Positions 3,671-27,257 of a stretch of DNA of 39,075 bases are shown in pieces. The notes under the pieces are model-generated. The model did not search any database. It was not told the origin of the DNA and was given only the letters and a program-made list of their open reading frames with translations. Positions within the stretch are counted from its first letter, which is position 1. Every line of letters begins with the position of its first letter. Origin of the DNA: Alphaproteobacteria bacterium (GTDB lineage Bacteria; Pseudomonadota; Alphaproteobacteria; Puniceispirillales; Puniceispirillaceae); assembly GCA_009920665.1 (NCBI GenBank), contig RFZL01000021.1:1-39075 (forward strand), written 5' to 3'. Made by a program: the position numbers and the translations under genes.

Positions 3671-3711
3671 TGTCGTGTCCCCGTATCTGTCGCCAGTATC
3701 CGTGATCGGTG

Positions 3712-4455
3712 TCAGCCAAGCCGGTCGAGCGTGGAATCAACCCATTTCCAGAAGCCTTTCGGCGTGTCGGCCTCAGCCATCGCCACCAGCGAGACAGGCG
3801 CCTCGTCAGCGGCCCGCCGCGGGCGTGGCGGCAGATATTTATTCACCGGTTTCGTGCCCTGTTCCGGCATCAGATCGATACCGTCACGCGCCGCCACCAT
3901 CAGGCTGACCTCGGAATTCGGATCGCCGAGATCGCCAAAATGCCGGGCATTGGTCGGACAGGTGCGAACACAGGCCGGCACGCGGTCCTCCTCCGGCAGA
4001 TTGTCGTTATAGATGCGGTCGACGCAGAGCGTGCATTTCTTCATCACCCCCTCGGCCGGGTCCAGCTCGCGCGCGCCATAAGGGCATGACCAGGCACACA
4101 GCCCGCAACCGATGCACCAATCCTCGTTCACCAGCACGATGCCGTCCTCGGCGCGCTTGAAGGACGCGCCGGTCGGACAGACGGTAACGCAGGGTGCCTC
4201 TTCGCAATGCAGGCAGGATTTCGGAAAATGCACGGTGCGTGAATCGCCGCCATCGCCAGCCTCATAGGCATGCACCCGGTTCAGCCACGCGCCGCTTGGT
4301 GCCTCGCCATAGGCATCGGAATCGGCAAGTGGCGCGCCATAGCCGGCGGTGTTCCATTCCTTGCAATTGACAACACAGGCCTGGCAGCCGACGCAGATAT
4401 CGAGGTCGATGACAAGCCCGAGCTTGATCGCCGAAGGCTCCGGCAGCATGGTCAT
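3712..4455 (-). CDS. soeB: Four-cluster ferredoxin-like subunit of sulfite dehydrogenase (DmsB-like)
   Basis: A 247-residue electron-transfer subunit with four cysteine groups for [4Fe-4S] clusters: DICVGCQACVVNCKEWN near residues 14-30, SCLHCEEAPCVTVCP, WCIGCGLCAWSCPYGA, and KCTLCVDRI with PACVRTCPTNA. This is the DmsB/PhsB/SoeB layout. It should carry electrons from the Mo subunit to the membrane anchor. The start ATG at 4455 overlaps the soeA stop in an ATGA, with GGGAG a few bases upstream inside soeA. The frame stays open further upstream to 4500, but that extension lies wholly inside soeA and lacks a ribosome site, so I reject it. Stop at 3712; soeC follows after 41 bases. Confidence 0.9.
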   Translation of the reverse strand: MTMLPEPSAIKLGLVIDLDICVGCQACVVNCKEWNTAGYGAPLADSDAYGEAPSGAWLNRVHAYEAGDGGDSRTVHFPKSCLHCEEAPCVTVCPTGASFKRAEDGIVLVNEDWCIGCGLCAWSCPYGARELDPAEGVMKKCTLCVDRIYNDNLPEEDRVPACVRTCPTNARHFGDLGDPNSEVSLMVAARDGIDLMPEQGTKPVNKYLPPRPRRAADEAPVSLVAMAEADTPKGFWKWVDSTLDRLG

Positions 4456-7343
4456 GACTTGTCTCCCTTGTCCGCTGTGTCTTGCGCCCGCGACGTCCAT
4501 TCGATGCCGTAGCGAAGCGTCGCCTCCGGCGCATCCTCGCCATTCATCCGCGGCAGCGTATCGAATTGCGGCCAGGATTCAGCGGGTTCATCCGCCGCCG
4601 CCTTTTCGATCTGCACGCGCAAATCGAACCAGGCGGCCTGGCCGGTGATCGGGTCGGAATTCGACCAGCGCATGCCGTCACCCTTCGGCGGCAGCAATTC
4701 ATGGATCAGGTGGTTGAGAAGGAAGCCCTTCTTCGCCTCCGGTGCCTCGGGGTCGAGTTGCCAGGCGCCCTTGCGCTTGCCGATGGCATTCCAGGTCCAG
4801 ATCGTCCGGTCATTGACGCCGGCCATCACCGCCACCGGCACGCGGATGCGGCCATGATGCGAGGTCACCCAGATCCAGTCACCATCCGTCAGATCATGCT
4901 CGGCGGCGAGTGCCTGCGAGATGAACATCGGGTTGTGGCCGTGAATCTGGCGAAGCCAGGCATTCTGCGAGCCCCAGGAATGATACATCGCCATCGGCCG
5001 CTGCGTCAGCGCGTGAAGCGGGTAAGCCTCGTCATCGACGGCGCTTCCCTCAAATGGCGGGTACCAGCTTGGCAGCGGCGTGAAACAGGTCTGTATGCGT
5101 TCGCGAAGATGGTCGGGCGGCTGCTGGTCGCCATGCCCCTCGGCGGCAAGACGGAATTTCTGCAGCACCTCGGCATAGATCTGGAAGGCATAGGGTTGCG
5201 GCGCGTCATAGAACCCCATCTCGACAGCGAATTGCTGATAGGCTGCATTTGCCGGCTTGAAATAGCGTGCCTCGGCCGGGATTTCAGTGTGCCAGAAGGC
5301 GCCGTTGGCGATATAGGCGTCAAGCTGCTCGGCGTTCGGCGCGCCGCGCCCTTCGGCGGCGCCATCGGCACCGCGGAACCCGGCCAGCGGCCCGATGCCG
5401 GGCTTGCGCTCATGATTGACGATGTAGTCGCCATAATCCTCATATTTCGGCTTGCCATCCTCATCGACCATGCCGGGCAGGCCAAGCCGCGCACCGAGAT
5501 CGAGAAGCACCGACTGGAAGCAGCGGACATCGCGATCCGGCTCGACAACCGGCCAGCGGATGGCGTCGGCGACCGCGTCGGCCTCGCAGATCGGGCGGTC
5601 GAGAAGCGAGATCGCGTCATGCCGCTCCAGATAGGTGGTGTCGGGCAGCACCAGATCGGCATAGGCCACCATTTCCGAGGAATAGGCATCGGAATAGATC
5701 AGTCTGGGGATCTTGTACGCGCCTGTCTCGGGGTCGGTTTCGGTCAGCATCTCCATGACGCCGCGCGTGTTCATCGAGGAATTCCACGCCATATTGGCCA
5801 TATACATGAACAATACATCGACCGGGTACGGATCGCCAGCGACGGCGTTCGAGATGACCATATGCATCATCCCATGCGCCGACATCGGCGCATCCCAGCT
5901 ATAGGCCTTGTCAATCCGCTGCGGCGACCCGTCATCACCGATAATCAGATCCTCCGGCCCGAGGACATAGCCAAGCGGCGCGCCGGCCAGCGGCGTTTCG
6001 GGGGCCACCTGGTCGGGTCTGCCGGCAGGCTTTGGATGGACATGTGGCGGCTTCGGATAGGGCGGCTTGAAGCGGAACCCGCCGGGGGCCTCGACCGACC
6101 CCAAAAGAAGCTGCAGCATATGCAGCGCGCGGCAGGTCTGGAAGCCGTTCGAATGCGCCGAGATCCCGCGCATGGCGTGCATCGAGACCGGGCGGCCGAC
6201 CATGCGGTCATGCTTTTCGCCCTTCCAGTCGGTCCAGGGCTGTTCGATCACCACTTCCTTTTCAAAGGCGGCCTTGGCCAGATCGGCCGCCAGCTGGCGA
6301 ATCCGCGCGGCCGTGATGCCAACCTTCGGCGCCACTGTTTCGGGCGCGTAATCATCGGTCAGATAGGCCTCGGCCATCAGCGTGAAGGCCGGCACGGCGA
6401 TACCGCCGCCCTTCACCTTCACCTCGCCCTGCAGCGCCACCCTGACCGCGGCATCGGAATGCGGCGCGGTCTTGCCGGTCACGCGGTCAAGCACCAGCGG
6501 CGTGCCGTCATCATCACGAAGGAACAGCCCGTCATTCGCCTTGCCGGGGTTGCGGATGACAAGCCACGGCGCGTTGGTGTAGCGGCTCAGATAATCGATA
6601 TCGACCTTGCCGGCGCGCATCAGCTCGCGCACCAGCGACAGGATCAGCAGCCCGTCAGTGCCGGGCGTGACACCATACCAGTCATCGGAAATCGCGGCAT
6701 AGCCGGTCTGCACCGGATTCACCGAGATCACCCGTGCGCCGCGCGTCTTCAGCTTGCCAAGGCCGATCTTGATCGGGTTGGAATCATGATCCTCGGCGAC
6801 GCCGAACAGGATGAAAAGCTCGGTCAGGTCCCAGTCGGGCGAACCGAACTCCCAGAAGGCACCGCCAAGCGTATAGATGCCGCCAGCTGCCATATTGACC
6901 GAGCAGAAACCGCCATGTGCGGCGAAATTCGGCGTGCCGAACTGCTGCGCCCACCAGCCGGTCAGCGCCTGTGACTGGTCACGGCCGGTGAAGAAGGCCA
7001 GCCTGCGCGGATCGCTCTTGCGGATCGGCGCCAGCCAGTCGGTCGCGGTCTGCAGCGCCTCCTCCCAGCTGATCTCCTCGAACTGGCCGGAGCCGCGCGG
7101 CCCGACCCGCCGCAGCGGGGCGCGAAGACGCGCCGGCGAATAATGCTGCATGATGCCGGCCGATCCCTTGGCGCACAGCACGCCCTGATTGACCGGATGG
7201 TCGCGGTTGCCCTCGATATAGCGGATCTTGCCATCGCGCAGATGCACATTGATGCCACAGCGGCAGGCGCACATGTAACAGGTGGTCTGCCTGACCTCGT
7301 CACTGACATGCGGGGCGGTATCGACCTTCGGCTGAACGGTCAT
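4452..7343 (-). CDS. soeA: Molybdopterin catalytic subunit of SoeABC-type sulfite dehydrogenase (DMSO reductase family)
   Basis: A 963-residue member of the DMSO reductase family. The N-terminal [4Fe-4S] site is C22-x2-C25-x3-C29 with C57 (VLCAKG). A likely Mo ligand is Cys147 in GGFCSVNMA. The protein starts MTVQPKVDT and has no twin-arginine signal, so it should stay in the cytoplasm. That is a known trait of SoeABC, unlike periplasmic DMSO or polysulfide reductases. Sulfite to sulfate oxidation with electrons to quinone is the expected reaction. The start is chosen at 7343: AGGAGG lies 6-7 bases upstream, and its ATG overlaps the pta stop (ATGA). The frame extends to 7478, but that part lies inside pta. 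Subunit sizes (963/247/304) and linkage to pta fit roseobacter soe loci as I know them. Another sulfur- or nitrogen-compound oxidoreductase of the same family remains possible. Confidence 0.8.
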   Translation of the reverse strand: MTVQPKVDTAPHVSDEVRQTTCYMCACRCGINVHLRDGKIRYIEGNRDHPVNQGVLCAKGSAGIMQHYSPARLRAPLRRVGPRGSGQFEEISWEEALQTATDWLAPIRKSDPRRLAFFTGRDQSQALTGWWAQQFGTPNFAAHGGFCSVNMAAGGIYTLGGAFWEFGSPDWDLTELFILFGVAEDHDSNPIKIGLGKLKTRGARVISVNPVQTGYAAISDDWYGVTPGTDGLLILSLVRELMRAGKVDIDYLSRYTNAPWLVIRNPGKANDGLFLRDDDGTPLVLDRVTGKTAPHSDAAVRVALQGEVKVKGGGIAVPAFTLMAEAYLTDDYAPETVAPKVGITAARIRQLAADLAKAAFEKEVVIEQPWTDWKGEKHDRMVGRPVSMHAMRGISAHSNGFQTCRALHMLQLLLGSVEAPGGFRFKPPYPKPPHVHPKPAGRPDQVAPETPLAGAPLGYVLGPEDLIIGDDGSPQRIDKAYSWDAPMSAHGMMHMVISNAVAGDPYPVDVLFMYMANMAWNSSMNTRGVMEMLTETDPETGAYKIPRLIYSDAYSSEMVAYADLVLPDTTYLERHDAISLLDRPICEADAVADAIRWPVVEPDRDVRCFQSVLLDLGARLGLPGMVDEDGKPKYEDYGDYIVNHERKPGIGPLAGFRGADGAAEGRGAPNAEQLDAYIANGAFWHTEIPAEARYFKPANAAYQQFAVEMGFYDAPQPYAFQIYAEVLQKFRLAAEGHGDQQPPDHLRERIQTCFTPLPSWYPPFEGSAVDDEAYPLHALTQRPMAMYHSWGSQNAWLRQIHGHNPMFISQALAAEHDLTDGDWIWVTSHHGRIRVPVAVMAGVNDRTIWTWNAIGKRKGAWQLDPEAPEAKKGFLLNHLIHELLPPKGDGMRWSNSDPITGQAAWFDLRVQIEKAAADEPAESWPQFDTLPRMNGEDAPEATLRYGIEWTSRAQDTADKGDKS

Positions 7344-8311
7344 GTGTGATCCTCCTGTGCGGCGATGGCCGCCAGTGCAAGTGATGCCAGTCGTGCCGCC
7401 GCCGGGTCGGACCGGCTGGTCAGCATGATCGGAACTCTGCCGCCAAGAACGACGCCGGCGGCAAGACCCCCGGCGCAATAGGCGAGCGCCTTGAATAGCA
7501 CATTGCCGGAAACAATGTCAGGCACGATCAACCCGTCGGCAAAACCGGCGACCGCGCCCATATCGCTGTCGGCTGGAATGCCCTTGATGGCGACCGAGTC
7601 CGGGGACAGTGCCAGATCAAACGAGAGTGGCCCGGCAAACGCCGCCCGGTCATCACTGGCCGAAGCCGCCTTCGCAATCTCGGCCGCCTCGATGCTTGAA
7701 GGCATGCCGGGAAGCTGCGATTCGGTGGCCGACAGAACGGCGATCCGCGGCCTTTCGACCCCCGTCCGGCGCAGCAACGCCGCCATCGCCAGCGCCGCCT
7801 CGGTACGGGTGGCGACATCCGGCGCGATATTGACCGCGGCATCGCTGATCAACAGCGGGCGCCCGCCACCCGGCGGCAACATGGAAAAGATATGAACCAG
7901 CCGGCGGTCGGTGCGGATGCCGGAGGCCCGCCTGACGATCGTGCCCATGAAGATATCGGTGTGAAGCTGGCCCTTGATCAGGCCATGCGCACGGCCGGCC
8001 CCAACCTCGGCGACGGCGGCGTCGATGGCGGCCTGTTCGCCCGATGCGTCGATGATGCGCGCACCGGCAAGGTCCCAGCCGATAGCGGCTGCGTCCTGTT
8101 CGATCTGCGCTGTCTCACCGACAAGGATCGGCACCGCGAGCCCGGCCGCCAGCGCATCGCGCGCAGTCTCCAGAATCGGGCTGCCAATGGCCCGCACAAA
8201 CGCCACCGGGCGCGGCGCGGCGTCACGCGCCAGTGCCAGGAACTCCGGCGGACAGGCCGCGTCGGCAGGCGTCAGGAACGGGCTTGCCACCGGTGATGCT
8301 GATGATGTCAT
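7340..8311 (-). CDS. pta: Phosphate acetyltransferase (Pta/Ptb family, short form)
   Basis: A 323-residue phosphate acyltransferase (PF01515-type fold) containing LIKGQLHTDIFMGTIVRR, LLISDAAVNIAPD and the C-terminal DGLIVPDIVSGNVLFKAL, all family features. It interconverts acetyl-phosphate and acetyl-CoA; a butyryl form (Ptb) is the alternative. It lacks the N-terminal DRTGG domain of long enterobacterial Pta. The gene is first of the run pta-soeA-soeB-soeC and shares an ATGA with soeA. In roseobacters a Pta of this short type sits beside soeABC and xsc, and turns the acetyl-phosphate made by sulfoacetaldehyde acetyltransferase into acetyl-CoA. No xsc is present here. The start ATG at 8311 has a GGGGGAG leader. 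Confidence 0.87.
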   Translation of the reverse strand: MTSSASPVASPFLTPADAACPPEFLALARDAAPRPVAFVRAIGSPILETARDALAAGLAVPILVGETAQIEQDAAAIGWDLAGARIIDASGEQAAIDAAVAEVGAGRAHGLIKGQLHTDIFMGTIVRRASGIRTDRRLVHIFSMLPPGGGRPLLISDAAVNIAPDVATRTEAALAMAALLRRTGVERPRIAVLSATESQLPGMPSSIEAAEIAKAASASDDRAAFAGPLSFDLALSPDSVAIKGIPADSDMGAVAGFADGLIVPDIVSGNVLFKALAYCAGGLAAGVVLGGRVPIMLTSRSDPAAARLASLALAAIAAQEDHT

Positions 8312-8402
8312 TCAGGTCTCCCCCACCCGTTGCGGGTGCGGCCATAAATTGCTGTCTGCCAGCCTCGCTGTCAATCATTCCTCCGTTCTGCCGGCAGGAT
8401 GT

Positions 8403-9827
8403 TCATGCGGTGGCGCGGCGCACTGTCTCGATCGCCGACGCAAGGCGCGACACCCCTTCGGCTATGCGCGCCTCGGGGATCGAGGAATAGGCAAGGCGGA
8501 AATAATTCAGCGGGGACGAACCGGGGGCAAAGAACACGTCGCCCGGTTCGATCAGCACGCCATCGGCGGCGGCCTGTTCGGCCAGCTGCCGTGAATCCAG
8601 CCAGTCAGGCCCCCTGACCCAAAAGCTGGTGCCGCCGAAATGCGACGCGGACTGGGTGAAAAGCCGGTGTGATTCCAGCGCCATCTGCAATGCTCGCCGC
8701 CGGCCGGCAAGGTGGCGTCGCAAGCGCCTGATCTGCGCATCATAATGGCCAAGCGCCATGAAATAGGCCAGCGTTCGCTGGGCATGTCCCGGCGGATGCC
8801 GCAGGATCAGGTGACGCAGCGCGCGCGCCTCCTCGATCAACGGTTCCGGCGCCACCAGATAGCCAAGCCGCAGGCCGGGAAAGACCGATTTCGACAGGCT
8901 GCCAACATAGATCACCCGCCCGTCACGATCCTGCGATTTCAGCGCCGGCGTCGCTGATTCAAGGAAATTCATCTCGAATTCGTAATCATCCTCGACAATC
9001 AGGAAATCATGTCGGCCGGCAAGCTCCAGCAGTTCGCGGCGGCGGTCCGCCGGCATGGTGTGCGTTGTCGGACATTGATGGCTTGGCGTGATGAAGACGA
9101 CATCACTTTCCGCCAGCGTCGGCTCGTCGATCACCAGACCACCGGTATCCACCGGCAATGCGGTGATGCGGTCGGTCCGCTGTTGCAGGATATCCCGCAG
9201 ATCGGGATAGGCCGGGTCCTCGATCACGACACGGCGCTCACCTGACACCAGCAGCTGGGCGACAAGATAGAGCGCGTTCTGCGCGCCGAGCGTCACCAGA
9301 ATCTGTTCCGGTCGTGCGGTGATGCCGCGGCGCGGCAGGCTCCGCGAGCAAATATAGTTCAACAGCATCGGATCGTCGCTCAGCCCGAAATCCCCGACCA
9401 TGCGCCCGAAATTGCGCATGCCGAGTGCCTGCCGCGCGCAGTCGCGCCAGTTCAGCGGCTTGCGAACCGGCCGGATATCGGAACAGGCGCCAACAATCTT
9501 GTCACGCCAGTCGACCCCCTCGCCGCCATCTTCAACCATGGCCATGCCAGGCATCGCGGCAAGGTGGCTGACCGGCGCATCGTTGCTGACAACATAGCCC
9601 GAGCGTTCGCGCGGCTGGATATAGCCGGTATCGATCAGCGCCTGATAGGCCAGCACAACCGTATTGCGTGATACGCCGAGCTGGCCGGCCAGCGCGCGAC
9701 TGGACGGAAGCTTGTCGCCGGGAAGGATCGCCCGCGCCAGGATGGCCTCGACAACCGACTGCTGGATCTGCGATTGCAGGCTGGTCTCGGCGCTGGAATC
9801 GAGATTGATGATCAGATGGTCGAGCAT
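8403..9827 (-). CDS. tauR: MocR-family (GntR/aminotransferase fusion) transcriptional regulator, TauR-like
   Basis: A 474-residue regulator with an N-terminal GntR winged helix (residues about 15-80; PGDKLPSSRALAGQLGVSRN is the recognition region) fused to a type-I aminotransferase-fold domain. The putative PLP-binding Lys313 lies in VGSLSKSVFPGLRLGY, and VEDDYEFEMN precedes it. MocR proteins sense amines or PLP adducts; TauR activates taurine:pyruvate aminotransferase genes in Rhodobacter. The gene is divergent from the aminotransferase gene at 10206 and upstream of pta-soeABC on the same strand, which supports control of both. I choose the ATG at 9827, with AAAGGGA 8 bases before it; an in-frame ATG at 9845 would add six residues but has a poor leader. 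The ligand (taurine, beta-alanine or other) is inference; the family assignment is firm. Confidence 0.85.
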   Translation of the reverse strand: MLDHLIINLDSSAETSLQSQIQQSVVEAILARAILPGDKLPSSRALAGQLGVSRNTVVLAYQALIDTGYIQPRERSGYVVSNDAPVSHLAAMPGMAMVEDGGEGVDWRDKIVGACSDIRPVRKPLNWRDCARQALGMRNFGRMVGDFGLSDDPMLLNYICSRSLPRRGITARPEQILVTLGAQNALYLVAQLLVSGERRVVIEDPAYPDLRDILQQRTDRITALPVDTGGLVIDEPTLAESDVVFITPSHQCPTTHTMPADRRRELLELAGRHDFLIVEDDYEFEMNFLESATPALKSQDRDGRVIYVGSLSKSVFPGLRLGYLVAPEPLIEEARALRHLILRHPPGHAQRTLAYFMALGHYDAQIRRLRRHLAGRRRALQMALESHRLFTQSASHFGGTSFWVRGPDWLDSRQLAEQAAADGVLIEPGDVFFAPGSSPLNYFRLAYSSIPEARIAEGVSRLASAIETVRRATA

Positions 9828-9883
9828 CCGGATGGTCCCTTTCATAAGTCTTTCATGGGTCCGCGGGAGATTGCTGACCGGTC

Positions 9884-9911
9884 TCTTGCCCCGGAAGGCA
9901 TCTTGCCCCGG
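9884..9911. repeat. 11-bp perfect direct repeat in the tauR/aminotransferase intergenic region
   Basis: TCTTGCCCCGG occurs at 9884-9894 and again at 9901-9911, 17 bases start to start. A shorter CGGGTT pair follows at 9909-9914 and 9922-9927. It lies just upstream of the regulator gene, in the likely regulatory region. Confidence 0.75.
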
Positions 9912-9927
9912 GTTGCTATCTCGGGTT

Positions 9928-9957
9928 AATCTGGCACCAGACTATCACAAATCTGGC
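9928..9957. promoter_or_regulatory. Candidate MocR/TauR operator: spaced AATCTGGC direct repeats with a CTGG palindrome
   Basis: AATCTGGC is repeated at 9928-9935 and 9950-9957, 22 bases start to start (about two helical turns), as expected for a MocR dimer. The first copy also forms the palindrome TCTGG-CA-CCAGA (9930-9941). The CTGG core recalls the direct-repeat TauR box of Rhodobacter (CTGGACYTAA, from memory). It lies midway between the divergent regulator and aminotransferase genes. Binding is inferred only from position and pattern. Confidence 0.45.
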
Positions 9958-10112
9958 TCTATAGCAGCCTGTGAAGCCTGTCTAGCGTGATAGCAGACGT
10001 GCCACCATCCGTCGCAGTTCGCCCATTGTCTTTTGCCGGTTATGCTTGTCGGCGAGGGCGCAGTGTCCAGGACGACCTTTCGGGGTGACACGGAACCGTC
10101 CCGAAAATACCG

Positions 10113-10170
10113 GACGGGAAACTGCCAGACGGGAAAACGCCAACCGGCAGGGCGCTACGGGAACGTGCCA
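10113..10170. repeat. 15-bp imperfect repeat array in the aminotransferase leader (3 copies)
   Basis: Two directly tandem copies, GACGGGAAACTGCCA (10113-10127) and GACGGGAAAACGCCA (10128-10142), differ at two positions. After 13 bases comes a third copy, TACGGGAACGTGCCA (10156-10170). The array ends about 35 bases before the aminotransferase start codon, so it would lie in the promoter or the 5' leader. Confidence 0.75.
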
Positions 10171-10205
10171 GTACCGAACGCCCCGGCCACATGAAGGAGA
10201 CCGCC

Positions 10206-11519
10206 ATGTCCTATGATGTGAATTCGCTTGAGGCACACTGGATGCCCTTTTCCGCCAACCGGGATTTCAAGGCCAATCCCCGCATGGTCGTCAAGTCCGA
10301 GGGCATGTACATGTGGGATTACAAGGGGGGCCAGATCATCGACGGATCATCGGCGCTGTTCTGCACCCCGGCCGGACATGGCCGCCGCGAGATCGCCGAG
10401 GCCGTCTACAGCCAGATGCTGAACAATGATTATTCGCCGCATTTCCAGCTTGGCCACCCCGGCTCGTTTGAGCTTGCGGAGCGTGTCTGCCGGATGCTTC
10501 CCGACAATTTCAACCACATGTTCTTCACCAATTCGGGTTCCGAATCGATCGACACGGCGATCAAGATCATCCTCGCCTACCAGCGGGCCCGCGGGCAGGC
10601 ACAGCGCAACCGCCTGATCAGCCGCGAGCGCGCCTATCACGGCGTCAATATGGGCGGGGTGTCGCTTGCCGGCATGGTCCGCAACCGCGAGACCTTTGGC
10701 CTGACGCTGCCGAACATCTCGATGATTCGCCATACCTGGACCGAGGAACAACGTTTCTCCAAGGGCCAGCCAAAGACCGGCGCCGAACTTGCCATGGATC
10801 TGGAGCGCATCGCCGAGAACCTTGGTGGCAGCACCCTCGCCGCTGTCTTCATCGAGCCGGTTGCCGGTTCAACCGGCACACTGGTGCCCCCGGAGGGCTA
10901 TCTGGAGAAGGTCCGTGAAATCTGCGACAAGCACGGCATGCTGCTTGTCTTCGACGAGGTGATCACCGGCTTTGGCCGCATGGGAACCGCCTTCGCCACG
11001 CAGAAATTCAACGTCCGTCCGGACATCATCACGATGGCGAAGGCGATCACCAACGGCGCCATCCCGATGGGCGGTGTTGCCGTCACCGACGAGATCTACG
11101 ACACCGTCGTCAACTCGGCACCAGGCAATGCCATCGAATTCTTCCACGGCTATACCTATTCGGCCCACCCGGCAGCCTGTGCCGCCGGAATCGCCACCCA
11201 GAAGATCTATGAGGCTGACGGGCTGTTCGAGCAGGCCGCCAATCTGGAATCCTATTTCCTTGATGCCGTGTTCTCGCTTCGGGACCATCCACTTGTCGCC
11301 GATATCCGCGGCATCGGCATGATGGCCGGGGTCGAGGTGCATCCCGAGGGTGCGCCCGGCGCGCGCGGCGGCGAGATGCAGAAGGCGATGTTCTGGAACG
11401 GCCTGCATGTGAAATGGACCGGTGACAATGCGATCATCGCGCCGGCCTTTGTTGCCGAGCGCAAACATGTCGACGAGATCGTCGACAAGTTCCGCAAGAC
11501 TCTCGACCAGGCGATGTAA
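10206..11519 (+). CDS. Class III omega-amino acid:pyruvate aminotransferase (beta-alanine or taurine type)
   Basis: A 437-residue PLP enzyme of the class III aminotransferases. It moves the terminal amino group of an omega-amino acid to pyruvate. The PLP lysine is Lys279 (ITMAKAITNGAIPMGG), with FIEPVAGSTG and VFDEVITGFGRMG before it. Opening residues EAHWMPFSANRDF, SPHFQLGHP and HGYTYSAHPAACAAG closely recall beta-alanine:pyruvate aminotransferase of Pseudomonas. The context (TauR-like regulator divergent, pta-soeABC beyond it) instead suggests taurine or hypotaurine. Both are C2-C3 omega-amines and the enzyme may accept either. The start is ATG 10206, with AAGGAGA 5 bases upstream; the ATG at 10191 is rejected because this ribosome site lies inside it. 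The broken FAD monooxygenase starts 20 bases downstream, so they were probably co-transcribed. Confidence 0.85.
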   Translation: MSYDVNSLEAHWMPFSANRDFKANPRMVVKSEGMYMWDYKGGQIIDGSSALFCTPAGHGRREIAEAVYSQMLNNDYSPHFQLGHPGSFELAERVCRMLPDNFNHMFFTNSGSESIDTAIKIILAYQRARGQAQRNRLISRERAYHGVNMGGVSLAGMVRNRETFGLTLPNISMIRHTWTEEQRFSKGQPKTGAELAMDLERIAENLGGSTLAAVFIEPVAGSTGTLVPPEGYLEKVREICDKHGMLLVFDEVITGFGRMGTAFATQKFNVRPDIITMAKAITNGAIPMGGVAVTDEIYDTVVNSAPGNAIEFFHGYTYSAHPAACAAGIATQKIYEADGLFEQAANLESYFLDAVFSLRDHPLVADIRGIGMMAGVEVHPEGAPGARGGEMQKAMFWNGLHVKWTGDNAIIAPAFVAERKHVDEIVDKFRKTLDQAM

Positions 11520-19257: not shown

Positions 19258-20139
19258 CTAACCGGACCGCCGCGGCAGCAGCCGGCGAAGCTGGCCGGGT
19301 TCGACAATGACCGCCGCGACACCACCAATGACGATGATCCCGCCAAGCATCACATGCAGACCCGGGCGTTCGCCAAGAAAGCTGACGGCGCCGAGGATTG
19401 TCGATACCGGCAGCAAGAGCAGCACCGGCATCGCCATCGGCACCGGATAGCGCGCCAGAATGAAATACCAGGCCGAATAGCCGACCACCGTCATGACCAC
19501 ACCAAGATAGGCGACCGCCACCCAGTCGGTCGCCGAGGCGCTGGCCAGAACGGGCAGCGGATTCCCCTCGATGAAAACCGAGGCAAGCAGCATCTGCGGC
19601 GCCGCGATCATGCCGATCCAGGCGGTCAGCTGAAAACCGTTGAGCGCATCGCCAAGCCGGCGCACAAGCACCTGCCCGAAAGCCCAGAACAGACAGCCTG
19701 ACAGGACAAGCAGGACACCAAACATCTGGCCCTGAAGCGACGGCGCCCCGACAATGGTGGCAATCCCGCCAATCGACACCGCCATGCCGAATATCTGGCG
19801 GCGGGTCGGCCATTCACGAAGCATCAGCGCGGCGATCACGGTGCCGAACACCACCTCAGACTGAATCAGCAGGATGGCCGGCGTCGCGTCCATCCTGGCA
19901 AGGCCGGAGAATGTCAGGCCATATTGCAGGGTGGCCGAGGTCAGCGCGATGATTGTCAGATCGCGCCAGTGGCCGCGCGGCAATTTCACGAACCAGACAA
20001 GGATCAGCGCCGCGATCAGGAAGCGCATCCCCATCAGCAGCAGTGGCGGGAAATGCGCCAGTCCCGCCTTGGCCAGCACGAAACCAAACCCCCAGGTCAG
20101 CGGCACGACAAGCGCGATCAGAAGATGTAGCGGCGTCAC
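19258..20139 (-). CDS. EamA/DMT-superfamily transporter
   Basis: A 293-residue membrane protein with ten predicted helices arranged as two EamA repeats. The first starts ALVVPLTWGFGFVLAKAGLA; the second lies around WAFGQVLVRRLGDALNGF and has LLPVSTILGAVSFLGERP. Such proteins export or import amino acids and related metabolites. Its start codon overlaps the stop of the M20 deacylase gene (ATGA at 20136-20139), so it is the last gene of the frmA-fghA-ureohydrolase-M24-M20-EamA run. It may move the substrate or a product of that pathway. Direction and ligand cannot be read from sequence. Confidence 0.88.
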   Translation of the reverse strand: MTPLHLLIALVVPLTWGFGFVLAKAGLAHFPPLLLMGMRFLIAALILVWFVKLPRGHWRDLTIIALTSATLQYGLTFSGLARMDATPAILLIQSEVVFGTVIAALMLREWPTRRQIFGMAVSIGGIATIVGAPSLQGQMFGVLLVLSGCLFWAFGQVLVRRLGDALNGFQLTAWIGMIAAPQMLLASVFIEGNPLPVLASASATDWVAVAYLGVVMTVVGYSAWYFILARYPVPMAMPVLLLLPVSTILGAVSFLGERPGLHVMLGGIIVIGGVAAVIVEPGQLRRLLPRRSG

Positions 20140-21341
20140 CCGGACACCTCTTGCATCGTCCCGCCGGTCATCTCGGCAAGCAGCCTGTCGAGGAAGGTCA
20201 GCCCCTCGTCGATCGCCGCCTCGGTGATGAATTCTTCAGGCTGATGCATCTGCGCCATGCCGCCGGGGCCGATCACGATCACATCCATGCCGGCCTGCTG
20301 GAAATACGGACCGTCGGTGCCGAAGGAGACCACCTGCGGTGCTTCGTTCGTCCACAGCCTGCCGACAAGCTCGGCCGCCGCGGACGGTGTTTGCGCCACC
20401 AGTGGCGGCACGTCCGACAGCATCTGCGTGGCAATCTCGCAGGCCGGGTCGCCAGCCTTCATGGCCGGCAGGAGGTCGCTGTCGATAAACGCCATGACAC
20501 GGTTGTAGAGTTGATGCGGGTCCTGCCCCGGAAGCGCCCTGATTTCCCAGTCGATGCGGCATTCACCGGCAATGATGTTGCGCGCCTCACCACCGGTGAC
20601 AGTCCCCACCGACAGGGTCGAGAAAGGCGGGTCGAAGGGGGAGTCGGCCTGCGGGCTGGTGGCGCATTCGGCGGCCAGATCCTCGATAAAGGCGATCAGT
20701 CGCGCCGCCGCATAGATGGCGTTGACGCCGCCAGCCGGGCGCGAGGCATGGCCGGCAACCCCGCGGATATGGGTCACCAGCTCGATCATGCCCTTGTGAC
20801 CGTTAAAGGGGTTCATGCCGGTGGGTTCACCGACAATCGCCAGGCGCGGCGTCACCCCGTTGGCAGCGAGGAAAGCCGGCATCCGCTCGGCCCCGAAACT
20901 GCCGATCTCCTCATCGAAGGTGAAGGCAAGATAGAGCGGCTCGGCAAGCTGTTCGGCCCGTTCCTGAAATGCCGGCGCCATGGCCAGCACCATGGCAAGG
21001 AACCCCTTCATATCGACAGCGCCGCGGCCGATCAGCCGTCCGGTCTCACGCCGCAGGGTAAAGGGATCACCGCCCCATCCCTCGGCAGCGGCCGGCACGA
21101 CATCGAGATGACCCGACAGTAGTACTCCGCCCGGCGCGGCCGGCCCGATCCGTGCCAGCAGGTTGAAGCGGGCCCCGTCTTCATGCGCATCGCGCCAGGT
21201 CTCGACACCAAGCGCGGCAAGACAGGATTCGATATGGCTTACAATATCGTCATTTGGCTGCAGGCTGATGCTGTGAAAACTGACAAGATCGGCCAGCAGC
21301 GCTATCGCCGCCTCGCGGCGCGGGTGACCGCCAGCCATCAT
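20136..21341 (-). CDS. M20-family amidohydrolase, acetylornithine deacetylase-like
   Basis: A 401-residue M20 di-zinc deacylase of the ArgE type. Metal ligands and catalytic residues are visible: His78 and Asp80 in LLSGHLDVVP, Asp110 in GRGAVDMKGF, Glu144/Glu145 in FTFDEEIGSFG, and a late His in MAQMHQPEEF. It would remove an N-acyl group from an amino acid such as N-acetylornithine. Its place downstream of a ureohydrolase and an ectoine hydrolase-like protein suggests a catabolic deacylase rather than the arginine biosynthesis enzyme. The start ATG at 21341 overlaps the M24 gene stop (ATGATGG); the frame reaches 21377, but that lies inside the M24 gene. It overlaps the EamA gene by four bases. 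Confidence 0.87.
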   Translation of the reverse strand: MMAGGHPRREAAIALLADLVSFHSISLQPNDDIVSHIESCLAALGVETWRDAHEDGARFNLLARIGPAAPGGVLLSGHLDVVPAAAEGWGGDPFTLRRETGRLIGRGAVDMKGFLAMVLAMAPAFQERAEQLAEPLYLAFTFDEEIGSFGAERMPAFLAANGVTPRLAIVGEPTGMNPFNGHKGMIELVTHIRGVAGHASRPAGGVNAIYAAARLIAFIEDLAAECATSPQADSPFDPPFSTLSVGTVTGGEARNIIAGECRIDWEIRALPGQDPHQLYNRVMAFIDSDLLPAMKAGDPACEIATQMLSDVPPLVAQTPSAAAELVGRLWTNEAPQVVSFGTDGPYFQQAGMDVIVIGPGGMAQMHQPEEFITEAAIDEGLTFLDRLLAEMTGGTMQEVSG

Positions 21342-22513
21342 GCCGGCACGACATGGACATGCTGCGGAAACGCGCATAGCCGCTCACAGTCGCCGCTGCG
21401 CACATGCAGGGTTTCGCTGAGTTCCATGCCCCAGTCATCCATCCACATGCCGAGGATCACATGCACCACCGCGTCTTCCGGCACGATTGTCACCTCGCCG
21501 GGGCGCAAGGACAGCGTGCGCTCGCCCCAGTCGGGGGCATAGCCGGTGCCGATCGAATAGCCGATCCGGCTTGGCTTCTCGAGGCCGTAACGGTCGAGAA
21601 CACGCTGCCAGGCGGCATGGACATCACCGGCGATCGCGCCGGCCTTCAGGCTGTCCATCACCGCCGCCATGCCCTCTTCGACAGCCGCCGCGGTGCGCTG
21701 CAGATTGTCAGGCGGCGTGCCGAGATGAACAGTGCGTGCCAGCCCGACATTGTAGCGGCGCGCGCAGGCCCCAAGTTCGAAGGCGATTGTCTGGCCGGGC
21801 TCAAGCGGCGCATCGGTCCATAGCGGATGCGCCGTCGCCGCCGCCTCGCCGGCAAGGATCAGCGGATGAATGGCCGGCATGTCGCCGCCCTGCTCCGGCG
21901 TGCCACGAATCTGTGTTGCCACCACATCGGCCATCAGATCGCATTGCCGCACGCCCGGGTGTGCCCCGTCCCAGGCCGTCTGCATCGCCGCCTCGGCAAT
22001 GCGCGCAGCACGGCGCATGATGGCCAGCTCGGCCGGGCTTTTCACCAGCCGCTGCCAGTTCACCAGCAGGTCGGCATCGACAAATTCGGCATCGGGAAGC
22101 CCGTCCCGCAGCGTCGCCATGGCGCGCGGTGACAGAAAATAGCTGTCGCTCTCATAGCCTATCCGTGACGCGCCGAATCCACGCCCCACCATCCAGTCGG
22201 CGACATGCGCCATCGGATGCGTATCGGTGCGCTGGACCAGTGTTTCGGGATAGGCAACAAGCTGCTCCTCGGACAGATAGGTGGTGAATTTCGCCGCCCC
22301 GGCATCCATCAGCCTGCCGCACCAGAACGGCCCGTCATGCAGGTCGACCAGCATCACCTGCGGGGTGTAGAAGGACCAGGCATCATAGCCGGTCAGCCAG
22401 TTGATGTTCGCCGGATCGCCGATGACCAGCGCCGCAAGGCCGCGCTTCTCCATCTCCACCCGCACCCGTGCAAGGCGGGACGCATATTCATCTTTGCTGA
22501 AGGCAGGCGCCAT
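21338..22513 (-). CDS. M24-family creatinase/ectoine hydrolase-like enzyme with lost metal ligands
   Basis: A 391-residue pita-bread protein of the M24 family. Segments NINWLTGYDAWSFYTPQ, HPGVRQCD, SRIGYSIGTGY, PDWGERTLSLRPGE and MWMDDWGMELSE strongly recall ectoine hydrolase (DoeA/EutD). The positions that bind metal in M24 aminopeptidases are changed: the first Asp is Glu246 (FELG) and the second is Gly257 (YNVGLART). A conserved His229 (TAHPLWTD) aligns with the catalytic His of creatinase. So this is a metal-independent C-N hydrolase, not an Xaa-Pro peptidase. The substrate could be ectoine-like, creatine-like or another amidine/guanidino compound. It starts three bases after the ureohydrolase stop and overlaps the M20 gene by four bases. 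Confidence 0.83.
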   Translation of the reverse strand: MAPAFSKDEYASRLARVRVEMEKRGLAALVIGDPANINWLTGYDAWSFYTPQVMLVDLHDGPFWCGRLMDAGAAKFTTYLSEEQLVAYPETLVQRTDTHPMAHVADWMVGRGFGASRIGYESDSYFLSPRAMATLRDGLPDAEFVDADLLVNWQRLVKSPAELAIMRRAARIAEAAMQTAWDGAHPGVRQCDLMADVVATQIRGTPEQGGDMPAIHPLILAGEAAATAHPLWTDAPLEPGQTIAFELGACARRYNVGLARTVHLGTPPDNLQRTAAAVEEGMAAVMDSLKAGAIAGDVHAAWQRVLDRYGLEKPSRIGYSIGTGYAPDWGERTLSLRPGEVTIVPEDAVVHVILGMWMDDWGMELSETLHVRSGDCERLCAFPQHVHVVPA

Positions 22514-22516
22514 GGC

Positions 22517-23485
22517 TTAGCCCCCGTCTCGATAGGCGACGCCGGGAAGCACGCACAGCATCTCATAGAGAAGATTGGCCGCCAGCAACGCGGTATTGCC
22601 CTGCGGGTCATAGGGTGGCGAGACCTCGACAAGGTCGGCCCCGACAAGTGACAGCCCGCGACAGCCGCGGATGATCTCGATCGCCTGGATCGGCGTCAGC
22701 CCGCCAATTTCCGGTGTGCCGGTGCCGGGCGCGAATCCGGGGTCGAGCGAATCGATATCAAAGGTGAGATAGACCGGCCCGTCGCCAAGCGCCGCCCTGG
22801 CCCGCGCGATCAGCGGGGCCGCCGACTGGTGCCACAACTCCTCGGCCTGGACAACGGTAAAGCCCCGGTCACGCGCCCAGTCGAAATCGCCTGCCGTGTA
22901 GCCGGTGCCGCGCAGACCGATCTGCCAGGTGCGGTGCGGGTCGATCAGCCCTTCCTCGACGGCGCGCCGGAACGGTGTGCCATGCGCGATGGCCTCGCCG
23001 AACATATGGTCATTGATATCGGCATGCGCGTCGACATGGATCAGCCCGACCGGCCCGTGACGGCGCGCGATGGCGCGCAGCACCGGCAGCGTCAGCGTAT
23101 GATCGCCGCCAAGCGTCAGCGGGATCACATCATACGCCAGCACATTGTCATAAAAACCGGTGATCCGCGCCACCGAATCCTTGAGGTCGAAGGTGTTGAT
23201 CGGCACGTCGCCCAGATCCCCGACACGCAGCGAATCAAACGGCGCGGCGCGGGTCCACATATTATAGGGGCGCAACATTACCGATTCGGCGCGGATCTGC
23301 TTTGGCCCGAACCGCGTTCCCGGCCGATTCGAGGTGCCAACATCAAGCGGGATGCCGATAAAGACAGCATCCATGTCGGCGGCGCTGTCGATGGCCGGAA
23401 GGCGCATCATTGTTCCCGGGCCGGCAAAGCGCGGCATTTCGTTGCCGCCGAGCGGTTGCGGGAAATCCGCCGCGTCGTCACTCAT
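22517..23485 (-). CDS. Ureohydrolase of the guanidinobutyrase/guanidinopropionase (agmatinase) family
   Basis: A 322-residue arginase-fold enzyme that splits a guanidino group to urea and an amine. The binuclear Mn site is complete: His129 in LTLGGDHTLTL, Asp152/His154/Asp156 in HVDAHADIND, and Asp243/Asp245 in FDIDSLDP. The N-terminus QPLGGNEMPRF and the segment TRFGPKQIRAESVMLRPYN are very close to Pseudomonas GbuA/GpuA, so guanidinobutyrate or guanidinopropionate is more likely than agmatine. Guanidine itself is another option, because guanidine hydrolase belongs to the same superfamily. It starts 35 bases after fghA and is followed by the M24, M20 and EamA genes with almost no gaps. Confidence 0.88.
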   Translation of the reverse strand: MSDDAADFPQPLGGNEMPRFAGPGTMMRLPAIDSAADMDAVFIGIPLDVGTSNRPGTRFGPKQIRAESVMLRPYNMWTRAAPFDSLRVGDLGDVPINTFDLKDSVARITGFYDNVLAYDVIPLTLGGDHTLTLPVLRAIARRHGPVGLIHVDAHADINDHMFGEAIAHGTPFRRAVEEGLIDPHRTWQIGLRGTGYTAGDFDWARDRGFTVVQAEELWHQSAAPLIARARAALGDGPVYLTFDIDSLDPGFAPGTGTPEIGGLTPIQAIEIIRGCRGLSLVGADLVEVSPPYDPQGNTALLAANLLYEMLCVLPGVAYRDGG

Positions 23486-23520
23486 CTCACCATGCTCCGC
23501 AGTTGATCATGAACACCGGA

Positions 23521-24348
23521 TCACAGCCGCGCCGCATGCCAGCGGAGGTGATCCTCCATGAAGGTGGAAATGAAATAATAGGAATGGCCATATCCGGGCT
23601 GCATCCGCAGCGTCAGCTCGGTCAGCCCGCCCTTGCAGACATCCCCGAACAGCCATGGCCGCAAGCCGGTTTCAAGAAAACTGTCGGCATCGCCCTGGTC
23701 GATCAGGATTTCGGGAAAGGCGTGGCCGTCCTCGACAAGCGCCACCGCGTCCCAGGCCCGCCAGTCATCGCTGTCGGGGCCAAGATAGCGGGTGAAGGCA
23801 TTCGCCGCCCAACCGGCCGTCGACGGGTTGACGATCGGCGCGAAGGCCGAACAGCTGCGAAAGCGCTGGCTGTTGCGAAGTGCCATCACCAGGGCACCAT
23901 GGCCACCCATCGAATGGCCGAAAATCCCTTCGCGCGCCATGTCGACCGGGAAGTTCGCCGCGATCACCGCGGGCAAGTCCTCCAGCACATAGCTGTACAT
24001 CCGGTAGTTCGCATCATAGGGCGCCACCGTCGCATCGACATAGAATCCGGCCCCCGACCCGAACTGCCAGTCATCCTCATCCGGCACATCATCACCGCGC
24101 GGGCTGGTATCGGGACAGATAATAGCGATCCCGAGCTCCGCCGCGGCGCGCCGGTATTCGCCCTTCTCCATGACATTGGCATGCGTGCAGGTCAGCCCCG
24201 ACAGATACCACAGCACCGGCACCGGCCCGTGCTCGGCCTGTGGCGGCAGGTAGACGGCAAAGGTCATGTCGCATCGGGTGACCTGCGAGGCGTGGCGATA
24301 GACACCCTGGACACCGCCAAAGGATTTTTCAGTCGACAGCGTTTCCAT
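23521..24348 (-). CDS. fghA: S-formylglutathione hydrolase
   Basis: A 275-residue esterase-D-type serine hydrolase that turns S-formylglutathione into formate and glutathione. The nucleophile is Ser146 in GIFGHSMGGHGAL. The acid and histidine lie in ILIDQGDADSFL and QPGYGHSYYFI, and LSGLTCTHANVMEKG is the family oxyanion segment. Length and all signatures are standard. It lies nine bases after frmA, completing the glutathione-dependent formaldehyde route, and 35 bases before the ureohydrolase. Confidence 0.95.
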   Translation of the reverse strand: METLSTEKSFGGVQGVYRHASQVTRCDMTFAVYLPPQAEHGPVPVLWYLSGLTCTHANVMEKGEYRRAAAELGIAIICPDTSPRGDDVPDEDDWQFGSGAGFYVDATVAPYDANYRMYSYVLEDLPAVIAANFPVDMAREGIFGHSMGGHGALVMALRNSQRFRSCSAFAPIVNPSTAGWAANAFTRYLGPDSDDWRAWDAVALVEDGHAFPEILIDQGDADSFLETGLRPWLFGDVCKGGLTELTLRMQPGYGHSYYFISTFMEDHLRWHAARL

Positions 24349-24357
24349 ATCGTCGCT

Positions 24358-25467
24358 CTAGAACACCACGACGGCGCGGATTGACTCACCCTCATGCATG
24401 AGATCGAAGCCCTTGTTGATATCCTCGAGCGCCAGCGTATGGGTGATCATCGGGTCGATCTCGATCTTGCCCTGCATGTACCAGTCGACAATCTTCGGCA
24501 CATCGGTGCGCCCGCGCGCCCCGCCAAAGGCGGTGCCACGCCAGCTGCGGCCGGTGACAAGCTGGAACGGACGGGTGGAAATCTCCTGACCGGCACCGGC
24601 AACGCCGATGATGATCGACTCGCCCCACCCCTTATGCGCGCATTCCAGCGCCTGGCGCATCACGTTGGTGTTGCCGATACATTCAAAGGAATAATCGGCA
24701 CCGCCGCCGGTCAGCTCGACAAGATGGCCGACAAGATCGTCGCCATGCTTGGCCGGATTGACGAAATGCGTCATGCCGAACCGCTCGCCCCATTCCTTCT
24801 TGCTGTCATTCAGGTCGACACCCACAATCATGTTGGCGCCAATCATGCGAAGACCCTGGATGACATTCAGCCCGATGCCGCCAAGCCCGAAGACAACGGC
24901 GTTGCATCCCGGCTCGGCCTTGGCGGTATTGATCACCGCGCCAATGCCGGTGGTGACGCCGCAGCCGATATAGCAGATCTTGTCGAACGGGGCGTCCCTG
25001 TTGACCTTCGCCAGCGAAATCTCGGGGAGCACGGTGAAATTCGAGAAGGTCGAGGTGCCCATATAATGCAGGACCGGCTCGCCCCTGATCGAGAACCGGC
25101 TGGTACCGTCGGGCATCACGCCCTGCCCCTGGGTGGTGCGGATCGCCTGACACAGATTGGTCTTCGGATGAAGGCAATATTCGCATTCCCGGCATTCCGG
25201 CGTGTAGAGCGGAATGACATGATCACCGGGGACGACACTGGTCACTCCCGGGCCGACCTCGCGCACAATGCCGGCCCCCTCATGGCCGAGGATCGCCGGG
25301 AACATGCCCTCGGGATCGGCACCGGACAGGGTGAAGGCGTCGGTATGGCAGATGCCGGTGGCCATGATTTCCACCAGCACCTCGCCGGCGCGCGGGCCAT
25401 CCAGATCAACTTCCATGATTTCAAGTGGCTTGCCGGCAGCCACCGCGACAGCGGCACGGGTCTTCAT
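24358..25467 (-). CDS. frmA: S-(hydroxymethyl)glutathione dehydrogenase (class III alcohol dehydrogenase)
   Basis: A 369-residue zinc alcohol dehydrogenase that oxidises the glutathione adduct of formaldehyde with NAD+. Catalytic zinc residues: Cys40 in TGICHTDAF, His62/Glu63 in LGHEGAGI and Cys in [12 protein letters not shown]. Structural zinc: Cys92, Cys95, Cys98 and Cys106. The Rossmann motif [14 protein letters not shown] is present. The gene is first of a run with fghA, the ureohydrolase, the M24 and M20 enzymes and the transporter. Linkage to formaldehyde oxidation suggests that N-demethylation (for example sarcosine or methylamine-type substrates) accompanies the pathway. The roughly 130 bases upstream show no clear promoter. 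Confidence 0.96.
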
Positions 25468-25598: not shown

Positions 25599-27257
25599 CT
25601 AGCGCTGCGCCGTCTCCCAGCCGGGATGAAAGTACGGGGTGTCGTTGGCGCGGGCCAGCGAGGCCCGGCCCAGAATATGATCCGCCGCTTTCTCGCCGGT
25701 CATGATCGAGGGGGCGTTCAGATTGCCATTGGTGATGCGCGGGAAAATCGATGAATCGGCGACCCGCAACGCATCGACCCCGATCACCCGGCAGTGCGGA
25801 TCGACGACGCTGGCTGCATCGTCGGCGGCGCCCATGCGCAGCGTGCCGCAGGGGTGATAGGCGCTTTCGGCATGATCGCGGATGAACGCATCAATGGCGT
25901 CATCCGAGATGGCATCCTCGCCAGGCTGGATTTCAGCGCCGCGATAGGGGTCCATCGGTGCCTGCCTGATAATCTCGCGGGACAGCCTGATGCAGCGCCG
26001 GAATTCCGCCCAGTCATCGGGATGGCTCATATAGTTGAAACGGATCTCCGGCGCGGATGCGGGTTCGGCATCGCGGATCCGGACATGGCCGCGCGATTTG
26101 GAGCGCATCGGCCCGACATGAAGCTGGAAGCCATGCCCCGCGGCCGGCGCCCGGCCGTCATAGCTGATCGCCACCGGCAGGAAGTGATACTGGATATCCG
26201 GATAGGCAACACCGGCGGCCGACCGGATGAAGCCAAGCGTCTCGAACTGGTTGGAGGCACCAAGCCCGCGCTTGAAGAACAGCCATTCAGCGCCGATGCG
26301 GGCCTTCGCCAGAAGGCCAAGATGGCGGTAAAGGGTGATCGGTTGCAGGCAGGCAATCTGGAAATAGACCTCGAGATGGTCCTGCAGATTGGCGCCGACG
26401 CCGGCCCGGTCGGACCGCACCACCACGCCGGCATCCTGCAGTACCTGGCCGGGCCCGATTCCCGAACGTTGCAATATCTGCGGGGAATTGATCGCGCCCG
26501 CCGCCAGCACAATCTCGGCATTCGCGCGCACCTCGTGTCTGGCGCCGCCACGAAGATAGCTGACGCCCACCGCGCGCGTCCCGTCAAACAGGATCCTGTC
26601 AACAAGCGCCCGCGTCACAAGCCGCACATTGCCGCGCGCCATGGCCGGCCTGAGATAGGCATTCGCTGCCGACCAGCGCCGTCCCTTCCATACCGTCATG
26701 TCGGCCGGGCCGAAACCTTCCTGCCGGTGTCCGTTATAGTCCGGTGTCGCCGCATAGCCTGCCGCCTCGGCCGCCGCGACGAAAGCGCCGTGAAGCGGGT
26801 TGTCGCGCGGCCCGCGGGTGACATGAAGCGGCCCGTCCGTACCGCGCCAGGGCGCCTCGCCGCCATGCGAGGTTTCCATGCGCCGGAAATAGGGCAGCAC
26901 ATCGGCATAGCCCCATCCGGTGGCACCCGATTCCTCCCAATGCGCGTAATCACCGGCATGGCCACGAACATAGATCATGCCGTTGATCGAGGACGATCCG
27001 CCGATCACCTTGCCGCGCGGACAGACAAGCCGCCGTCCGCCAAGCGCCGGTTCCGGCTCGGCAAGATAGCCCCAGTCATAGCGCGGCATGTTCATCGGAT
27101 AGGACAGGGCGGCCGGCATCTGGATCAGCGGGCCGGCATCACTGCCACCAAATTCGAGGACCAGGACGCGGCGCCTGCCATCCTCGCCAAGCCTGTAGGC
27201 AAGCGCGCTTCCCGCCGAGCCCGAACCGATGATGATATAGTCAAAGCTGTCGTTCAT
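25599..27257 (-). CDS. GMC-family FAD oxidoreductase (choline dehydrogenase-like)
   Basis: A 552-residue glucose-methanol-choline oxidoreductase. It opens with the FAD motif [19 protein letters not shown] and has the GMC signature [18 protein letters not shown]. The active-site His is in [12 protein letters not shown], and the C-terminal [17 protein letters not shown] carries the partner Asn. It oxidises an alcohol to an aldehyde, passing electrons to the respiratory chain. Choline is the classic substrate, but alphaproteobacteria carry many paralogs with unknown alcohols, so BetA itself is not claimed. Same strand as frmA but separated by about 130 bases; divergent from the amidase gene. Confidence 0.88.

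Follow-up and report, generated by a model that had tools for sequence, protein, structure and literature searches.

The window analysed here is a 39,075-nucleotide stretch of DNA (contig RFZL01000021.1 of assembly GCA_009920665.1) from an alphaproteobacterium of the SAR116 group (Puniceispirillaceae), whose genome comprises 2.69 Mb in 214 contigs. Its central feature is a run of seven co-oriented minus-strand genes, in which an M24-fold protein related to the ectoine hydrolase DoeA/EutD adjoins an M20-family N-acyl deacylase, and the question is what this pair does and whether its neighbours take part. Throughout, L, G and C denote loci, genomes (G000 being the window's own) and contigs compared in this analysis. 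From the first gene of the run onwards, the features are:

25599..27257, minus strand: BetA-type choline dehydrogenase (TIGR01810, 830.9 bits, cut-off 732.1)
24358..25467, minus strand: FrmA, S-(hydroxymethyl)glutathione dehydrogenase (TIGR02818, 615.3 bits, cut-off 543.95)
23521..24348, minus strand: FghA, S-formylglutathione hydrolase (TIGR02821, 430.8 bits, cut-off 281.7)
22517..23485, minus strand: ureohydrolase of the guanidinobutyrase (GbuA) type (3nio, 501.7 bits; 3nip, 356.2 bits)
21338..22513, minus strand: M24-fold DoeA/EutD-type ring-opening hydrolase without a metal site, 391 residues (TIGR02993, 403.5 bits)
20136..21341, minus strand: M20 ArgE-type N-acyl deacylase, 401 residues from the ATG at 21341 (TIGR01892, PRK07522)
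19258..20139, minus strand: EamA/DMT (drug/metabolite transporter) family transporter, overlapping M20 by GTGA (PF00892, 136.9 bits)

The six open reading frames (ORFs) from FrmA to EamA had been proposed in the original prediction to form one guanidino or cyclic amidine pathway. All six are present where they had been placed, with the 9-, 35- and 3-base gaps that had been reported, and the families had been named rightly, with FrmA and FghA above NCBIfam cut-offs and the others being agmatinase-family, DoeA-like, ArgE-type M20 and EamA proteins. Two ATGA overlaps had also been described; the one between M24 and M20 exists if the M20 gene starts at 21341 (its ORF has a further ATG upstream at 21377), and the one between M20 and EamA reads GTGA instead. 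BetA, which lies 131 bases upstream of FrmA, was absent from that set. The same gene order is found in named Candidatus Puniceispirillum metagenome-assembled genomes (MAGs) of the family Puniceispirillaceae.

As judged from its sequence and structure model, the M24 protein is a divergent DoeA homologue that lacks the metal site. Its closest solved relative is DoeA of Halomonas elongata (6twk, 315.9 bits, about 38% identity), whereas creatinase 1chm scores only 38.1 bits in the same comparison with PDB sequences. The model (mean predicted local distance difference test score, pLDDT, 85.0, with residues 213-231 below 50) superimposes on substrate-bound DoeA (6twk_B) with a Z score of 48.8 over 386 residues at a root-mean-square deviation of 1.9, against Z scores of 38.0 and 37.7 for the creatinases 1chm and 7yto. 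In an alignment to prolidase 1wy2, the five positions that we take to bind metal are occupied by E246, G257, T323, L354 and S366, so the metal site is gone; on these replacements and the fold, an ordinary peptidase was rejected. Glu246 aligns with DoeA E255, presumably the residue of the covalent intermediate, and is invariant in the 16 sequences aligned. The earlier description of this protein as ectoine hydrolase- or creatinase-like and devoid of a metal site is thus borne out for the ectoine hydrolase and the missing metal site, not for creatinase. A creatinase role was rejected for the window protein, and any creatine role for it is unlikely, as contig C171 of the same genome encodes a true creatinase (7yto, 665.9 bits).

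The M20 protein had been taken for a deacylase, and this assignment agrees with curated models: it scores 342.3 bits against the ArgE equivalog TIGR01892 (cut-off 297.7) and 412.6 bits against PRK07522, just above the cut-off of 412. The motifs GHLDVVP, GRGAVDMKG, DEEIGS, GEPTG and HQPEE are all present. NF038260 (DoeB2), an NCBIfam model that matches M20D-type proteins, was not among the best 25 of its 51 NCBIfam matches.

Pairing of the two genes was examined in 61 genomes of the SAR116 family, from which 20 loci were fetched. M24 is present in 27 genomes and an M20 orthologue (at least 53% identity) in 26, all of which have M24; in the twenty-seventh, M24 is cut by a contig end. In all 20 loci the two genes lie side by side, and their pairing within SAR116 exceeds chance. 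Since gene order is conserved across this entire region within the family, this linkage is weak evidence for a shared function, and DoeA-type genes elsewhere were therefore compared. A class-wide sample of 386 genomes gave an M24 match at 1e-60 in 50 genomes, four of them SAR116, and a scan of named genomes contributed the best 80 of 589 places. The resulting 115 outside loci consist of 39 of the 40 fetched (from 61 match rows outside the family) and 76 of the best 80, after leaving out L085, where no M24 was called, and four SAR116 loci; several share a genome, and two M24 proteins are repeats, which leaves 113 distinct ones. Within two genes on either side of M24, the deacylase is DoeB in 35 loci, M20D in 18 and an ArgE-type M20 in nine (34, 18 and nine after removal of repeats), and two kinds never occur at one locus. 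The nine include four of the ArgE-type M20 query proteins themselves, as well as the M20 proteins of L149, L158 and L192, which are only 29-33% identical to the queries and were left out of the M20 trees. The pairing of a DoeA-type hydrolase with a deacylase is thus recurrent, inside and outside SAR116.

The clearest view of how an ArgE-type M20 might enter such a pair comes from comparison with a textbook ectoine cluster, L094, in which EutB (505.9 bits), EutC (500.5), DoeA (738.4) and DoeB (557.1) all exceed their cut-offs. The strongest case of a deacylase swap is L167 from Devosia, where EutB (492.3 bits, cut-off 413.35), EutC (550.9, cut-off 471.65) and DoeA (657, cut-off 613) are retained and an ArgE-type M20 (486.9 bits to PRK07522, cut-off 412) occupies the place of DoeB; no DoeB match at all was found genome-wide in this organism (G443). 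In L096 (DoeA, 702.5 bits), an M20 lies at the position that DoeB has in L094, and the aminotransferase, dehydrogenase and Lrp-type neighbours are as in L094. The labels DoeC, DoeD and AsnC/DoeX used for such neighbours rest on position in ectoine clusters and on what we take to be their usual meaning; NCBIfam matches the proteins labelled DoeC and DoeD to succinate-semialdehyde-dehydrogenase-like models, below cut-offs, and to the PRK07482 aminotransferase, and finds the AsnC of L096 to be Lrp-like, below the cut-off, with no match for that of L094. Further examples are L143 (DoeA 739.9 bits, M20 438.1) and L105 and L106, whose DoeA scores of 607.7 and 611.8 fall just below 613 and which each carry an ArgE-type M20. 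Among eight plasmid records with an argE-type M20, a Mesorhizobium plasmid (H2/L244) has an annotated doeA adjoining argE, followed by a second M20 gene, and no M24 was found in the other seven stretches (H1, H4, H5, H8, H9, H11, H16). DoeB exceeds its cut-off in none of six M20-paired genomes, in comparison with three of four DoeB-paired control genomes, the fourth reaching 392.2 bits against 402.7.

Two loci with closer relatives of the window protein show both types of partner. L125, from a Granulosicoccaceae MAG, encodes an M24 that is 65% identical, with an ArgE-type M20 on the opposite strand 32 bases away, and L129, from Acidimicrobiales, has a 56% relative beside a true DoeB (442.1 bits, cut-off 402.7), again on the opposite strand. 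In an M24 tree, made by a quick method, with long branches, and leaving out L083, L085 and L118 (short or uncalled) and L123, L124, L127 and L135 (redundant), the M20-paired L096, L105, L106, L143 and L167 lie among DoeB-paired rows. The M20 proteins linked to DoeA-type genes cluster on their own tree, needing two label changes against a mean of 8.2 after shuffling. Those of SAR116 form a clade with L096, L125 and L143, with support of 89/96 in the first tree and 98/96 in the second, from which three unlinked plasmid sequences on long branches and four redundant SAR116 entries had been removed and to which argE of L244 had been added. A single clade of all 27 linked M20 proteins is not rejected (p value of the approximately unbiased test, p-AU, 0.43), the best tree itself needing two label changes, whereas a clade of SAR116, L096, L125, L143 and L244 is rejected (p-AU 0.021) because L244 joins L105, L106 and L167.

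The remaining genes of the run behave differently from this pair. The ureohydrolase, detected at 1e-100, occurs in 21 of the 61 SAR116 genomes, 20 with M24 and one (G029) without, and seven of the 27 M24 genomes (G016, G017, G023, G024, G027, G030, G031) have no close ureohydrolase. At L044, L049 and L051 there is no ureohydrolase, and the distance between M24 and FrmA is 106 to 162 bases. Their sisters in the M24 tree (L042 for L044; L045, L047 and L050 for L049 and L051) all carry the ureohydrolase. Conversely, G029 keeps FrmA, ureohydrolase and EamA while M24 and M20 are missing between the latter two; this genome is 59% complete, but the stretch from FrmA to EamA is continuous. Given the seven M24-only genomes and the ureohydrolase-only G029, the ureohydrolase and the M24-M20 pair can each occur without the other. 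Among the 20 SAR116 loci, no FghA was found in seven and no EamA in one (L039). In the 115 outside loci, none of the window's ureohydrolase, FrmA, FghA or EamA had a match of 100 bits near M24. The sole such match elsewhere in these loci is a weak ureohydrolase in L136 (31% identity, 92 bits), more than 7 kb from M24, and L079 has an unlike EamA gene, assigned by Pfam, directly beside M24. In this neighbourhood comparison, of the kind suggested for the trio of M24, M20 and ureohydrolase, M24-M20 pairs recur outside SAR116 and the ureohydrolase does not, and the proposed membership of the ureohydrolase, FrmA and FghA in the same pathway is not supported. A single guanidino pathway for the six genes was rejected on the two-way separation in SAR116 and the absence of the ureohydrolase near M24 at all outside loci.

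The ureohydrolase had been called GbuA/GpuA-like, and GbuA is the better match: it scores 501.7 bits against the Pseudomonas aeruginosa guanidinobutyrase (3nio) and 356.2 against the guanidinopropionase (3nip), and its DHMFG motif aligns at GbuA M161, where GpuA has Y157, a position that we take to be meaningful for this distinction. The match to GbuA covers nearly the whole length, whereas the genomic neighbours differ, and guanidinobutyrate activity is predicted from this likeness. Most likely the protein is an ordinary guanidinobutyrate enzyme with a function apart from the pair, and would convert 4-guanidinobutyrate to γ-aminobutyrate and urea. FrmA and FghA are outside the M24-M20 module; BetA, FrmA and FghA would have their own function in choline and formaldehyde oxidation, and FrmA would fit formaldehyde handling beside BetA without a creatine-like substrate.

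With regard to the pair itself, fold and partners suggest that a ring is opened to give an N-acyl diamino acid, and the order once proposed, ring opening and then deacylation, fits M24 and M20. We lean moderately towards a hydrolase/deacylase pair of the ectoine type whose deacylase is a substitute, the product being 2,4-diaminobutyrate and the substrate presumably ectoine. M24, metal-free and probably acting via Glu246, would open the amidine ring of ectoine, or of a compound closely resembling it, to give an N-alpha-acetyl diamino acid; M20, metal-dependent as its motifs suggest, would then remove the acetyl group to give L-2,4-diaminobutyrate, taking over the DoeB/EutE step of textbook ectoine operons. 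An ArgE-type M20 is chemically apt for this, since N-alpha-acetylornithine exceeds N-alpha-acetyl-diaminobutyrate by a single carbon. The probable cargo of EamA is the amino-acid product or the substrate. Ectoine itself is favoured by the true ectoine genes that accompany DoeA in L167, by the true DoeA proteins of L096 and L143, by the true DoeB next to the L129 relative, and by L133, whose M24 belongs to the wider clade of the window M24 and whose neighbours are L094-like (its aminotransferase and semialdehyde-dehydrogenase-family genes share 56% and 50% identity, respectively, with their L094 counterparts). Additional checks strengthened the swap and the L129 case, and left our moderate preference for the ectoine-type pair as it had been.

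Several observations weigh against ectoine and have to be set beside these. The window M24 is below the DoeA/EutD equivalog cut-off of 613 bits, as is that of L125 (389.4), and no deacylase was found within two genes of M24 in 53 of the 115 outside loci (52 of 113 without repeats), in only 12 of which M24 lies less than 1500 bases from the locus end. Weaker DoeB-like proteins are encoded elsewhere in four of the six M20-paired genomes, with best scores of 93, 226, 240 and 294 bits. In the window's own genome, EutE/DoeB (TIGR02994), EutC and EctC have no match, EhuB reaches at best 51.7 bits (cut-off 190.9), and the candidates for two later ectoine steps, 43% and 47% identical to those of L094, lie on other contigs. 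Across the 61 SAR116 genomes, TIGR02994 and EutC match below cut-off in seven and 13, respectively, and neither these nor EhuB exceeds its cut-off in any; among the 27 with M24, six have an EutE-like match away from it, all below cut-off and one of only 19.4 bits. Finally, in L128 and L200, two gammaproteobacterial MAG loci that represent one lineage because their M24 proteins are 99% identical, 61% relatives of the window M24 directly follow AllH of an AllFGH (oxamate carbamoyltransferase) cluster. This setting does not look like ectoine and suggests that M24 takes part in a ureide or oxamate pathway there.

These points feed the most serious alternative, that the M24-M20 pair serves a different cyclic amidine or ureide, which we consider possible but rather unlikely. 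The low DoeA score, the other ectoine genes missing from the own genome, the AllFGH lineage (with an amino-acid-kinase-family gene in L200) and a 51% relative in L130, which has a gene for an aromatic amino acid lyase and an ABC (ATP-binding cassette) transporter of amino-acid type nearby, all speak for it; the close outside relatives, however, share the deacylases of true DoeA, an ArgE-type M20 in L125 and DoeB over its cut-off in L129, and the neighbours in L133 resemble those of the L094 ectoine cluster. A broader form, to which we give a similarly small chance, is that the M24 branch comprising the proteins of SAR116, Granulosicoccaceae, Neomegalonema and the AllFGH-linked gammaproteobacteria acts on a non-ectoine ring (cyclic amidine or ureide), which it opens, and that M20 removes an acyl or carbamoyl group, in an as yet undescribed marine osmolyte or nitrogen-compound pathway that would sit under the labels 'ectoine hydrolase' and 'acetylornithine deacetylase'.

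Far less probable is that M24 is a peptidase and M20 the ordinary acetylornithine deacetylase of arginine synthesis. The M20 score above the ArgE cut-off would agree with this, but M24 keeps no prolidase metal residue and is closest to DoeA by fold and sequence, and the DoeA-linked M20 proteins cluster on their tree. We consider it highly improbable that a single guanidino compound is processed by M24, M20 and the ureohydrolase in turn, with FrmA and FghA removing its formaldehyde. Tight co-orientation, close packing and the ureohydrolase in 20 of the 27 SAR116 M24 genomes speak for it, as do an annotated arginase near an M24-M20 pair in one Shinella plasmid and an argE-type M20 in a 2-ketoarginine-decarboxylase cluster of a Pararhizobium plasmid, in a stretch where no M24 was found; the outside loci, the three SAR116 loci with M24 close to FrmA and no ureohydrolase, and G029 all speak against it.

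Among known systems, the ectoine-type pair most resembles the DoeA-DoeB/EutD-EutE bimodule of Halomonas elongata and Ruegeria pomeroyi, in which the gene for an M24-fold hydrolase lacking the metal site is likewise followed by one for an N-acyl deacylase, and with which the window M24 shares the DoeA fold and the Glu at the DoeA E255 position. It differs in that its deacylase is an ArgE-type M20 and not an AstE/AspA-type DoeB, in that its M24 shares about 38% identity with the solved DoeA and scores below that family's cut-off, and in that the run has no EutABC, AsnC or EnuR-type gene. A second parallel is DoeB2 (NF038260, M20D type)/abgB, an amidohydrolase beside DoeA/EutD in eutD clusters of Bacillota where EutE is missing (PMC13188858); DoeB2 belongs to the M20 superfamily, as does the window M20, which is however of the ArgE type (PRK07522). 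Creatinase (1chm, 7yto) has the pita-bread fold in common with the window M24, with fold scores below that of DoeA.

In an earlier survey, EutD and EutE are described as both needed, and only genomes with adjacent eutD and eutE were counted as ectoine degraders (PMC8739950); under this requirement, pairs of a DoeA-type hydrolase and an ArgE-type M20 would have been missed. PMC13188858 reports eutD clusters without eutE in Bacillota and some Thermodesulfobacteriota, those of Bacillota carrying abgB, called a putative amidohydrolase there. Ectoine transport was predicted in SAR116 subclade III in a 2025 paper (PMC12262181). In a search confined to one open-licence library, no paper was found that joins 'ectoine hydrolase' with 'acetylornithine deacetylase', 'DoeB2' with 'ectoine', or 'guanidinobutyrase' with 'ectoine'. 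The M20 of such pairs would be named as an arginine biosynthesis protein, and marine SAR116 bacteria would become candidate ectoine consumers should the pair degrade ectoine. The pair would also offer a directly testable case in which one enzyme is replaced by an unrelated one for the same step, apparently more than once.

Other guanidino genes are present in the same genome, where the window ureohydrolase is one of five arginase-superfamily genes (L001-L005). The gene on C25 has guanidinopropionase as its closest match (3nip, 406.8 bits), and the one on C136 exceeds both agmatinase cut-offs and has an aminotransferase gene, a gene of the glutamine-synthetase family and genes for solute binding and transport around it; that on C154 is divergent and was assigned by Pfam alone. 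On C171 (L234, G000:C171:46000-60000, 3627-7191), the true creatinase adjoins a homologue of arginine:glycine amidinotransferase (1jdx, 289.7 bits) and a ureohydrolase of the agmatinase family, along with solute-binding and ATPase transport genes, which makes this a guanidino/creatine-type cluster in a SAR116 genome. As creatinase, amidinotransferase homologue and ureohydrolase are held together there, creatine-type chemistry is encoded elsewhere in this genome than in the window.

Elsewhere in the window, positions 3712-8311 carry a molybdopterin oxidoreductase with an Fe-S subunit, alongside a phosphate-acyltransferase-like gene; the molybdopterin protein scores far below every specific cut-off listed. 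The AllFGH cluster of L200 (L200:3-10019) and L128 also contains aspartate transcarbamoylase-like, asparaginase-like and amino-acid-kinase-family genes, the kinase being noted in L200. In L130 from Rhizobiales (L130:2200-3699, 7986-10344), M24 and an M20D lie near the lyase gene, and the ABC transporter nearby was identified by eye. Four genomes of one family, f108 (G167, G263, G347 and G419), have four DoeA-type matches each at 1e-60. A pyridoxal-phosphate-dependent enzyme of Cys/Met metabolism occurs within two genes of M24 in 16 of the 115 outside loci (L129, L150, L153, L155 and others), and this enzyme could act on diaminobutyrate.

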